DNA from: Bacteroidota bacterium
Lineage (GTDB): Bacteria; Bacteroidota; Bacteroidia; Flavobacteriales_E; Vicingaceae
DNA: 64,000 bases
NCBI GenBank assembly: GCA_013112545.1
Contig: JABFGJ010000001.1
Coordinates: 496,001 to 560,000, forward strand
Reading direction: 5' to 3'
In this document: positions 13,953 to 31,363 of the stretch, one piece after another
Position numbering within the stretch: the stretch's first letter is position 1
Layout: each line of letters starts with the position of its first letter
Notes under the pieces: generated by a model
Database searches by the model: none
Told to the model about the DNA's origin: nothing
The model's input: the letters and a program-made list of their open reading frames with translations, nothing else
Made by a program: the position numbers and the translations under genes

Positions 13953-14915
13953 ATGAAAAATAAAGGATTATTTATCTTTGCTGCTATAGTGGCAATGACA
14001 TTTTCTTCTTGCGAAAAGGAAACCCCTTTAACTGCAAATGATCAGTTTATACCAACTGCTACAGGAGAAGATCCAAGTGGCGGTAACCCTAATGGCGGCG
14101 GCACTGGCGGTGGAACCGGTGGTGGCACTGGTGGTGGTACTGGCGGTGGTACTGGAGGAGGTACTGGAGGAGGAGGCTCATCTCTAACTGTTGATGAAGA
14201 TCAAAGAGCTGTAGTAACTTATGTTGGTGCGACTTGGTGTCCACCTTGTGGTGCTTACGGTGATCCAACTAAAATTCACATGGAAGCTACACACGGTAGC
14301 AATGTTGTAATTTTAAATGTTCAATCTAATGATGCTATTAGTAGTTCAGGAACATTCGGACATGGCTTTGGTAGCGCTTTTCAAACTTTTGTTAGTAGCA
14401 CTAGTATTCCCCATGCATATTGGTCAGGTGCAAATTTTGCTATGGTTCATAGAGGTTTTTCTGGTTCTGCAAGTAGCAATAACTCACAAGCTGACAATAA
14501 CATTAACTCTATTATAGCTAATATGCCTGATGTTGGGGTTGCAGCAAAAGCAATTATGGATAATGATACAATTAATATAGAAACATTATCTAAGTTTTAT
14601 AAAGCAAGCTCAGAAATGTACCTTGGTGTTTACTTATTAGAAGATGGTGTTATGGCGAATCAAAAAAGGACTGGTTTACCAGACTCTACTACATCACATG
14701 AAAATGTTATTCGTGGAGCAGCATATACTGGAAATGCTTTAGGCATAGTATCTATCGGTTCTTCTTTTACAGTAAACCAAGAAGTCGTTGGAGATTACTC
14801 TATAGTAATCCCTGCAACCGTAGTGGACAAAACTAAATTACAAATTGCGGTAGTAGTTTGGGAATCCAATCAAGCCGATGGAGTTTCAAATGGAATTATT
14901 GTTGATATAGAATAA
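13953..14915 (+). CDS. Omp28-like lipoprotein with thioredoxin-type CPPC motif
   Basis: A 320-residue lipoprotein (lipobox TFSSC, C20). A flexible Gly/Thr linker of six TGGG units (residues 51-74) separates the lipid anchor from a globular domain. That domain begins with VVTYVGATWCPPCGAYGDP, a thioredoxin-like CxxC (C96/C99), and continues as an Omp28-related fold found in Bacteroidota outer-membrane proteins. The anchor plus linker suggests it sits at the outer membrane; thiol-disulfide activity is inferred only from the CPPC motif. It stands alone and is followed by a clear terminator at 14948-14976. Confidence 0.85.
   Translation: MKNKGLFIFAAIVAMTFSSCEKETPLTANDQFIPTATGEDPSGGNPNGGGTGGGTGGGTGGGTGGGTGGGTGGGGSSLTVDEDQRAVVTYVGATWCPPCGAYGDPTKIHMEATHGSNVVILNVQSNDAISSSGTFGHGFGSAFQTFVSSTSIPHAYWSGANFAMVHRGFSGSASSNNSQADNNINSIIANMPDVGVAAKAIMDNDTINIETLSKFYKASSEMYLGVYLLEDGVMANQKRTGLPDSTTSHENVIRGAAYTGNALGIVSIGSSFTVNQEVVGDYSIVIPATVVDKTKLQIAVVVWESNQADGVSNGIIVDIE
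14103..14174 (+). repeat. 12-bp coding tandem repeat (TGGG linker)
   Basis: Six consecutive 12-bp units encode Thr-Gly-Gly-Gly inside the Omp28-like lipoprotein. Third positions vary between units (GGC, GGT, GGA), so the array is not a fresh perfect duplication. It could still change copy number by slippage without breaking the frame. Confidence 0.85.
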
Positions 14916-29846: not shown

Positions 29847-29920
29847 GGGGGATTAGCTCAGTTGGCTAGAGCGCTTCGCTGGCAGTGAAGAGGTCATCGG
29901 TTCGAATCCGATATTCTCCA
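29847..29920 (+). tRNA. tRNA-Ala (anticodon GGC)
   Basis: A 74-nt cloverleaf. The acceptor GGGGGAT pairs with ATTCTCC (two G-U pairs), the D-arm is GCTC/GAGC, and the anticodon stem CTTCG/TGAAG encloses loop CTGGCAG with anticodon GGC. The T-arm ATCGG/CCGAT encloses TTCGAAT, and the discriminator is A. The terminal CCA is not encoded (CAA follows). The GGC anticodon reads GCC/GCU alanine codons. Its 3' part is the apparent ancestor of the hairpin repeats that follow directly. Confidence 0.97.
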
Positions 29921-29922
29921 CA

Positions 29923-30264
29923 AAAGAGGTCACCACGCCCAAAGCGTGGTATTCTCCACAAAAGAGGTCACCACGCCCAAAGCGTGGTATTCTCCACAAA
30001 AGAGGTCACCACGCCCAAAGCGTGGTATTCTCCACAAAAGAGGTCACCACGCCCAAAGCGTGGTATTCTCCACAGAAGAGGCCACCACGCCCAAAGCGTG
30101 GTATTCTCCACAAAAGAGGTCACCACGCCCAAAGCGTGGTATTCTCCACAGAAGAGGTCACCACGCCCAAAGCGTGGTATTCTCCACAAAAGAGGTCACC
30201 ACGCCCAAAGCGTGGTATTCTCCACAGAAGAGGTCACCACGCCCAAAGCGTGGTATTCTCCACA
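29923..30264 (+). repeat. Nine-unit 38-bp tRNA-derived hairpin array
   Basis: Nine 38-bp units run without spacers. Each holds AGAGGTC, then a perfect 7-bp stem ACCACGC/GCGTGGT with loop CCAAA, then ATTCTCCACA. The flanks AGAGGTCA and TATTCTCCACA are identical to the variable loop and acceptor 3' strand of the adjacent tRNA-Ala, so each unit is a tRNA 3' part with the T-arm replaced. Units differ only at an A/G position after CCAC and one T-to-C change (near 30083). No stop codon falls in several frames, so artificial ORFs cross it on both strands. It is not a CRISPR array. Confidence 0.93.
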
Positions 30265-30265
30265 G

Positions 30266-30302
30266 AAAGAAGTCTTTCTGCATCAAGCAGGAATATTTCA
30301 CA
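30266..30302 (+). repeat. Diverged tenth hairpin unit
   Basis: This continues the array phase: AAGAAGTC (like AAGAGGTC), then a 7-bp stem TTTCTGC/GCAGGAA with one G-U pair and loop ATCAA, then TATTTCACA. Stem sequence differs almost completely from the other units while stem and loop lengths (7 and 5) are kept. An alternative hairpin CAGAAAG/CTTTCTG (30263-30280) overlaps it. Confidence 0.65.
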
Positions 30303-30310
30303 GAGTCTTA

Positions 30311-30356
30311 AAACGAGAGCAGCCTGTTTGCAATTGCAAACAGGCTGCTCTCGTTT
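30311..30356. terminator. 46-bp perfect palindrome, probable bidirectional terminator
   Basis: Two 23-nt arms, beginning AAACGAGAGCAGCC and meeting at GCAATTGC, are exact reverse complements. It lies between the tRNA/repeat transcript and the convergent PGI/PMI gene, a place where a bidirectional terminator is expected. The flanking T runs are only three long, so termination would rely on the very strong stem; other roles are possible. Confidence 0.65.
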
Positions 30357-30367
30357 AGTATATGAAC

Positions 30368-31363
30368 CTAATCTAAATCTCCTAGCATATTTTTTAAGCC
30401 AGTAATTATGTTCACTTCTGTTGTGTCAACTTGGTTCAGCTGTCCTAAAAGTTCACTAATCCAATCTCCAAGGTGAATTAAATACAAGGCGTTGACAATT
30501 AAAGATTCTCCTTGTCCGTTGATGTCAACTACCTCGCCAGCATATTTAGAAATGACTTCTTTAGAATAATTTTCTCGCTCTACATTTCTATAATAATCCA
30601 ATTTTGTCTTGAAAAAGAGGACAGTTGAATCTTCGTTTTTCTTTTTCCAACCAACCAATTCATTGTGGTTCATTTCTGGTAAAGTGTGATGTAATGCTAA
30701 GCGTTTTGAATTCTCATTAATCTGTTGTCTAAACCTTACGCAAACGCCTTCCAATTCTGGACCTGAATAAATAATCGGGAACTTATTATAAAGTTTAGCT
30801 GCGATTACTTTAGCTTCTGCTTTTATTTCGGCTTCCTTGTTATCAATTAATTCAATTGATTTTTGAAACTCAGCTTCAAACGAATTGTTGATTAATTGGT
30901 ATTGGTTTAACAAGTAAAACAACTGTGGGAACGCCAAGCCAAAGGCTGCTCGAGGAGGTAGTCCACCTGGAATGACAATGATGTTATGCATTTCTGATTT
31001 GGCTATTTCTTCAAACTTGCCTCCAGATGTTACAATGGCAATTTCAGCGCCTTTTGCTCTAGCTTGCTCGTACATACTCAAGGTTTCCTCAGTATTTCCT
31101 GAATAAGAACTACAAACAACTAAAGTGTTTTTATTGACAAATTCAGGGATGAAATAATCTTTGTTGATTACAACTGGAACCTTAATCTCTTGTTTTATGA
31201 GTTGAGAAATAATCGTCCCGCCAATACCCGAACCACCTAATCCGCAGATTAACACAGAGTTAATTGTATTTTGTGATTGCTTAAATGCTGTCTTTTTACC
31301 GATTTCTATCGCCTGAGCTAGATGATTTGTAAAATCACCGATATGCCTGTCCATCATATTCAA
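30368..31363 (-). CDS. Bifunctional phosphoglucose/phosphomannose isomerase (SIS domain)
   Basis: A 331-residue protein of the PGI/PMI family: tandem SIS folds with ICGLGGSGIGGTI, CSSYSGNTEETLSMYEQA, PGGLPPRAAFG and the family-typical LHHTLPEMNHNELVGW. It interconverts fructose-6-phosphate with glucose- or mannose-6-phosphate. The start may be the ATG at 31363 or the nearby M3/M4 (MMDRHIGDF). Its 3' end faces the palindrome at 30311-30356. Confidence 0.92.
   Translation of the reverse strand: MNMMDRHIGDFTNHLAQAIEIGKKTAFKQSQNTINSVLICGLGGSGIGGTIISQLIKQEIKVPVVINKDYFIPEFVNKNTLVVCSSYSGNTEETLSMYEQARAKGAEIAIVTSGGKFEEIAKSEMHNIIVIPGGLPPRAAFGLAFPQLFYLLNQYQLINNSFEAEFQKSIELIDNKEAEIKAEAKVIAAKLYNKFPIIYSGPELEGVCVRFRQQINENSKRLALHHTLPEMNHNELVGWKKKNEDSTVLFFKTKLDYYRNVERENYSKEVISKYAGEVVDINGQGESLIVNALYLIHLGDWISELLGQLNQVDTTEVNIITGLKNMLGDLD

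Follow-up and report, generated by a model that had tools for sequence, protein, structure and literature searches.

Tandem tRNA-Ala 3' parts with substituted hairpins in a Bacteroidota genome: a possible scar of a tRNA-targeting process

Introduction

Why would a tRNA gene be followed by a run of copies of its own 3' part, each with the T-arm exchanged for a hairpin? The question is posed by a locus in the genome of a Bacteroidota bacterium (contig JABFGJ010000001.1), within the 64,000-nucleotide stretch of DNA that was analysed (positions 496,001 to 560,000) and that is referred to below as the window. An initial annotation, made from the letters of the DNA, took the array for a possible RNA sponge, processing decoy or source of small RNAs. 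Similar scraps that we have found at other tRNA genes, in the same genome and in related bacteria, some of them accompanied by a nuclease gene, point to repeated rearrangement and away from a regulatory RNA peculiar to this locus. That the array is one of a wider class of partial tRNA copies with substituted hairpins is better supported than any particular mechanism by which such copies might arise.

Structure of the array

The array is anchored by an intact tRNA-Ala with anticodon GGC on the plus strand (29847..29921), recognized both by ARAGORN and by Rfam RF00005, at 63 bits. Nine 38-bp units follow it head-to-tail on the same strand (29922..30263), with no gap between the tRNA gene and the first of them. 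These are the nine units that the initial annotation had placed straight after tRNA-Ala, and they were recovered by the unit list and by Tandem Repeats Finder, which reports positions 29912-30274 with a period of 38, 9.5 copies, 96% matches and a score of 682. Six units are identical, two have one base different, and one has two. The description of each as a tRNA 3' part also proved accurate: the variable-loop side, which precedes the T-arm, is retained as AGAGGTCA (AGAGGCCA in one unit) and the 3' acceptor strand as TATTCTCCACA, with the T-arm swapped for ACCACGC-CCAAA-GCGTGGT, a 7-bp stem closed by a 5-nt loop. A single unit folds at -14.8 kcal/mol (z -5.7), with 0 of 200 shuffles as good, and the stretch 29847-30360 folds with a z of -14.6, which none of 100 shuffles equalled. 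Next in register comes a tenth unit, also of 38 nt but diverged (30264..30301, plus strand), that is evident in the sequence, the unit list, the fold and the pair count given below; its stem, TTTCTGC-ATCAA-GCAGGAA, has 7 bp including one G-U pair and again a 5-nt loop, and its fold has a z of -3.6 (1 of 200 shuffles as good). The G+C content of the array is 52%, against 33% for the window.

Several simpler identities can be dismissed. ARAGORN finds a single tRNA in the whole window, so the units are not complete tRNAs, which rules out an ordinary tandem array of tRNA genes, and head-to-tail units without spacers rule out a CRISPR-like array. The ORFs that cross the array, 29885-30358 among them, read through the repeat and were not counted as genes. 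A search of the array against Rfam 15 gave no family at or above its gathering score, with RF00005 on the intact tRNA alone. Phage origin was rejected, the Ala-unit pattern having matched no viral contig. A plasmid search matched 37 records, none over more than 80% of the query, and in the ten matches listed coverage was confined to 75-79 bases at the tRNA end. A search of the complete assembly (3.27 Mb in 24 contigs) with the tRNA and array as query found the full array only here and partial matches at other tRNA loci. This result bears on a criterion of the initial annotation, by which the repeat at many unrelated loci would point to an ordinary dispersed repeat.

The locus in relatives

Upstream and divergent from the tRNA lies a gene of the fructosamine-kinase family (PF03881; 28865..29749, minus strand), identified by Pfam and followed with tblastn as a synteny marker. 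Downstream, a convergent gene with a bacterial phosphoglucose isomerase C-terminal SIS domain (PF10432 by Pfam) occupies 30368..31363 on the minus strand. Between the array and this opposing gene is a perfect inverted repeat (30311..30356), detected as a minus-strand self-match, that folds into a strong hairpin and is a possible terminator. The inverted repeat is absent from the results of a terminator scan, whose six matches are minus-strand copies of the array's repeat hairpin.

Among 29 tRNA-Ala loci of relatives, some cut by contig ends, the kinase gene lies beside the tRNA in 13, and the 38-bp array is present in none of these 13. One relative (G005) has a single, different unit directly behind tRNA-Ala (fold z -3.3), and two others (G007 and G031) have partial tRNA-Ala copies farther downstream. 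In G024, G031 and G049, tRNA-Ala(GGC) is accompanied by a GIY-YIG ORF and a hairpin-bearing partial Ala copy, and at the tRNA-Ala(GGC) of G047 a degraded copy was read by eye.

Hairpin-substituted copies at other tRNA genes

The 16S-23S spacer of the same genome holds, in order, tRNA-Ile, a partial tRNA-Ala in which TCCCGATTTGTATCGGGA replaces the anticodon arm, an intact tRNA-Ala(TGC), two T-arm-replaced units, and a further tRNA-Ala 3' copy whose anticodon arm is a hairpin. The two T-arm-replaced units carry the hairpins CCACGCTATGGCGTGG and ATTCCGATAAATCGGGAT, unlike those of the window, and fold with z values of -4.3 and -4.1. The idea that tRNA 3' parts have been repeated in tandem and made into uniform hairpins is borne out; a hairpin is kept in the ten window units and the two spacer units, and its stem letters vary. 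A count of base pairs was made over six units (three from the window, the tenth, and the two from the spacer), three of them near-identical and with the structure derived from the same sequences: all 64 of 64 cells are paired, 5 of 11 pairs are changed on both sides, and 0 of 500 shuffles scored as high. One of the five measures, the number of further pair types, was unremarkable, with 215 of 500 shuffles as high. With few rows, the count shows that the hairpin is a shared feature, not the reason for it.

Partial copies are widespread among the genome's own tRNA genes, of which ARAGORN counts 35 and Rfam 34. At E<=0.005, 10 of the 35 have partial copies nearby, a figure that includes one cross-hit, of Ile to the neighbouring Ala copy, and that leaves aside the window array and tRNA-Pro(TGG), whose copies exceed E 0.005. 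A looser cut-off gives 12 of 35, with a Trp match that looks like chance and the same Ile match. Besides the cross-hit, the affected tRNAs are fMet, Ala-TGC, Arg, Asn, Leu, Gln, His, Pro-GGG and Ser. In the hairpin-substituted copies at these other genes, the altered arm may be the anticodon-, T- or D-arm. Upstream of tRNA-Pro(GGG), for example (L100, G000:C14:36000-38500), are two pseudo-tRNA-Pro copies with T-arm hairpins and an altered, hairpin-like D-arm, each followed by a GIY-YIG ORF.

Two further arrangements may be recorded here. Four pieces of tRNA-Pro, spaced at ~127 bp and each followed by TTCCGC..GCGGAA, lie upstream of the genome's tRNA-Pro TGG (L127), and its tRNA-Gln (L141) has three downstream copies of its 3' end, 114 and 118 bp apart, with no perfect hairpin at the break.

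Hairpins at copy breaks

A perfect hairpin with a stem of at least 6 bp is found at 39 of 69 copy breaks in this genome and its relatives; for random positions drawn from those loci the figure is 65 of 1640. Tandem copies in these counts are not mutually independent. The genome itself contributes 10 of 20 breaks (9 of 18 when the Ile cross-hit is removed, which brings the combined figure to 38 of 67) and the relatives 29 of 49. Such a hairpin is missing at the other 30 of the 69. At the loci that came from the large contig scan described below, it is present at 2 of 13 breaks and missing at 11. Partial copies accompany 19 of 79 tRNAs of the relatives, which is not a prevalence, because these loci were picked through tRNA-Ala or GIY-YIG matches.

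Analogues in other genomes

Contigs from 84,980 species, perhaps not including the genome studied here, were scanned for a second unit behind a tRNA-Ala 3' end. The scan yielded three records, two of which have further Ala units with an altered T-arm. In a Cytophagales MAG, at least three 54-bp units reach the contig end, with a fold no better than that of shuffles (z 0.2). A Bacteroidetes MAG carries CCCCGATAGCTATCGGGG in the T-loop, and its unit folds weakly better than shuffles (z -1.9). The third record, from Winogradskyella, is only a remnant, with no hairpin seen by eye.

Two strict patterns were each run over 395 genomes of one class, taken from the named matches to be Bacteroidia. Ala copies with a hairpin anticodon arm occur in 11 of the 395 (control, 0), and fMet copies with a hairpin after the anticodon occur in 24 (one control match). 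Where loci were fetched, the cognate tRNA gene was present at 8 of 12 for the Ala pattern and 10 of 12 for the fMet pattern. Among 25 distinct fMet hairpins, two inner pairs that lie outside the pattern are both complementary in 18, against 7.7 after shuffling, and 0 of 10,000 shuffles reached as high. Arms reading TCCCGA, CCCCGA or TCCGCC recur in different genera among several of the palindromes that lie in tRNA copies.

GIY-YIG ORFs linked to tRNA genes

The genome has eight matches to the GIY-YIG domain (PF01541), one of them inside an ORF that we take to be of the uvrC type. Six of the other seven neighbour a tRNA gene, at a distance of no more than about 410 bp and, for five of the six, no more than 81 bp; the neighbouring tRNAs are Arg, Pro (two), fMet, Asn (where the match is broken by a stop) and a second CAT tRNA. 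The PF01541 search of the genome found none at the window array or on the contig of tRNA-Ala(TGC), and the match nearest the array, ~5.4 kb off (C1:531749-531979), is that in the uvrC-type ORF. With no such ORF within it, the window array is not itself classed as a free-standing GIY-YIG homing endonuclease element; sister arrays do contain such an ORF.

Seventy GIY-YIG loci, 69 from relatives and one from this genome, were taken by score, with uvrC-length matches and tandem duplicates skipped. In 13 of them the fetched stretch contains a tRNA gene, in all 13 on the strand of the ORF. A tRNA or tRNA fragment is present at 16, where fragments were sought with the 91 tRNAs that the collected loci provide, and at 54 there is none. 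The linked ORFs encode ~80-130 aa, and eight linked proteins are invariant at Y5, Y16, G18, R26, H30 and E62, among other positions. Among solved structures, profile comparison places UPF0213 proteins and SLX1, a structure-specific nuclease, closest to them, with I-TevI at E 0.39 only; two of four linked proteins match TIGR01453 in NCBIfam, far below the cut-off. Phage records searched with a single linked protein, that of G031, gave no match.

Trees were built without L070, L174, L188 and L197, whose ORFs are shorter than 75 aa, and without L161 of this genome. In a tree of 74 proteins, made by a quick method from a short alignment, one side holds 23 tRNA-linked and 4 unlinked rows and the other 47 unlinked rows; 8 of the 23 had been added for lying beside a tRNA. 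On the tree of the 23 linked rows, tRNA type requires 9 changes (minimum 8), and 500 shuffles gave a mean of 16.2 and a minimum of 13. Val, Arg, Phe and Leu each form a group and fMet needs 2 changes, with two elongator-Met rows ungrouped. The four Ala-linked rows, which are of the window's type, are also ungrouped (3 changes; 84 of 500 shuffles as low). Thus, the linked lineages are, as a group, faithful to tRNA type, and Ala alone is not; the tree overall is what homing to a fixed target predicts. Host family gives no signal on the same tree (5 changes against a shuffled mean of 4.98), a weak comparison because 18 of the 23 rows come from one family.

The ORFs also occur in tandem. Behind an intact tRNA-fMet (L098, G009:C9:905000-912500) stand ten GIY-YIG ORF matches at a spacing of 457 bp, the first units containing tRNA-fMet 3' scraps, and behind another tRNA-fMet (L099, G013:C2:182500-187500) are eight at 366-379 bp, with a TCCGCCATGGGCGGA hairpin in the scraps. 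Among the hairpin-substituted Ala or fMet loci, 6 of 24 have a related GIY-YIG ORF in the fetched stretch, and 18 do not.

Runs of N occupy the same place in successive tRNA-Leu/GIY-YIG units at L113 (G005:C2:96000-98000) and may be assembly gaps or withheld sequence. At L111 (G037:C5:12500-15000), two tandem GIY-YIG ORFs 599 bp apart represent a duplication, in a stretch with no tRNA gene.

Origin of the array

In this genome and in others of the class, the recurrent object is a set of partial tRNA copies beside an intact gene, in which a short hairpin has entered, or taken the place of, the anticodon, T or D arm. The occurrence of such copies at other tRNAs, together with some GIY-YIG ORFs, points to a process acting at the level of DNA. 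We give a probability slightly below one half (about 0.47) to the reading that a process directed at tRNAs, probably break repair set off by a nuclease, left the array as a tRNA scar, amplified and free of ORFs. In this scheme the nuclease would be a small GIY-YIG enzyme whose lineage is dedicated to a single tRNA type, and it would cut the tRNA gene or its edge; repair would then duplicate the tRNA end and leave a hairpin in an arm, whether as protection or as a repair scar. The hairpin would spoil the site in the copy and so prevent recutting, the intact tRNA would be retained by selection, and unequal crossing-over would multiply the unit. The window array may have come from this same process, in which case its nuclease has since disappeared or acts from another place. 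As the source of the hairpin, a snap-back of the arm of the tRNA itself was considered and set aside: by eye, the stem letters are foreign to the tRNA, so simple snap-back repair is insufficient. Several observations count against the nuclease: the lack of a GIY-YIG match at the window array and on the tRNA-Ala(TGC) contig, the 18 of 24 hairpin-copy loci with no related ORF nearby, the 54 of 70 GIY-YIG loci with neither tRNA nor fragment, the ungrouped Ala-linked and elongator-Met rows, and the breaks that lack a perfect hairpin. Such ORF-free loci, together with the window array, imply either a nuclease that acts in trans or has been lost, or hairpins of other origin. A little less probable is the proposal of an undescribed class of tRNA-parasitic elements, in which GIY-YIG lineages, each bound to one tRNA type, would turn tRNA ends into arm-swapped pseudo-tRNA arrays; the hairpins would mark or protect the element, and nuclease-free arrays such as that of the window would be trans-mobilised or relics.

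Next in order, with about one chance in four, comes tandem expansion and nothing more: the 3' end of the tRNA would have been duplicated by chance, picked up a hairpin and been multiplied by slippage or unequal crossing-over, with no nuclease involved and the GIY-YIG ORFs merely sharing harmless sites. The near-identity of the nine units, which means that they were recently homogenised, fits this well, as do the many hairpin-copy loci without an ORF, the lack of the array in the 13 syntenic relatives and the single different unit of G005. Left unexplained are the hairpins at arm breaks of many tRNA genes, the altered-T-arm Ala units in two of the three scan records, and a nuclease tree that follows tRNA type. 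Further behind lies the suggestion, which we think rather unlikely, that REP-like palindromic mobile elements, moved by, for example, a Y1 transposase, prefer the loops of tRNA copies, with selection keeping the intact tRNAs clean. The palindromes of G005 and, partly, of L119 do sit inside the T-loop with the T-stem letters still there, those of G031 are at D- and anticodon positions, several have the arms common across genera noted above, and the genome has one PF01797 (Y1 transposase) match, on another contig. Yet the GTAG and CGTC tags are absent from both strands of 29922-30301, TCCCGA..TCGGGA occurs at 9 places in the genome, and CACGC..GCGTG at 18, with tRNA-copy arrays accounting for 13 of the 18 and the window array for 9 of those 13. 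Being so few, the two palindrome types are not abundant dispersed repeats, and a dispersed REP repeat family was rejected on the missing tags and the low copy number.

Least probable, and improbable in our estimation, is a functional RNA: the array, co-transcribed with tRNA-Ala, would form a structured trailer or act as a processing decoy or a sponge. The strong fold of unit and stretch, the hairpin kept with changed stems in the tenth and the two spacer units (0 of 500 shuffles), and the long inverted repeat after the array would all suit such a role. Independently acquired hairpins would give the same pair count, however, and many tRNAs have kindred structures in which the altered arm varies. 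The sponge or decoy of the initial annotation, and with it the source of small RNAs, accordingly finds little support, the array being absent from the syntenic relatives and its nine units nearly identical.

Comparison with known systems

Tandem repeats that include a tRNA 3' end lie directly downstream of the E. coli tyrT gene (the tyrT repeats, or rtT RNA); they are ~178 bp long and are not known to be hairpin-substituted. The window array resembles them in being made of downstream tRNA 3'-end repeats and differs in its 38-bp, hairpin-substituted units, which match no Rfam family at gathering score. Integrative elements that restore a tRNA 3' end leave an intact tRNA on one side and a displaced 3' fragment on the other. 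The copies described here differ in their breaks, which fall in the anticodon, the variable or the T region and often bear a hairpin, and in the 5' partial copies that occur upstream as well.

The closest precedent that we found is the phage protein SegB. This GIY-YIG protein, encoded beside tRNA genes, was found experimentally to be needed for tandem amplification of a tRNA segment, and cleavage inside a tRNA-containing sequence was suggested (PMC13096335). The free-standing homing endonuclease SegB of T4/T6 is alike in the position of GIY-YIG beside tRNA and in the tandem amplification of tRNA with nuclease gene. The present case is unlike it in being cellular, in its ORFs of ~80-130 aa, in lineages that follow tRNA type and in partial copies with hairpin-altered arms, and its nucleases are putative. 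REP/RAYT and CGTC-tagged palindromes are short bacterial palindromes, some inserted in genes, that bear a GTAG or CGTC tag (PMC3733652). Set against that description, the palindromes seen here are likewise short; the window array lacks both tags, and the two types searched for are few, one being mostly in tRNA copies.

In open-licence PMC literature we found no description of hairpin-swapped tRNA arrays or of tRNA-linked GIY-YIG in Bacteroidetes. The initial annotation knew of no described system of this exact form; analogues have come to light in this analysis.

If the nuclease reading is true, tRNA genes in a major bacterial class would be targets of a homing-like nuclease family, and the hairpin-swapped scraps would be its traces. 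That would account for the tRNA fragments and tandem repeats that have been puzzling next to tRNA and rRNA genes, and it would provide nucleases that nature has already sorted according to their tRNA targets. How tRNA genes survive such an attack would become a question that can be tested at the bench.

Additional observations

Two minor features were recorded outside the tRNA copies. Within a 23S rRNA gene (L007 3231-3246, G000:C17) there is a palindrome, TCCCGATTAATCGGGA, which may be a natural helix or a hairpin of the same kind. In the window, positions 14093-14173 are occupied by 12-bp tandem repeats, composed of TGGCGGTGGTAC and a related unit.
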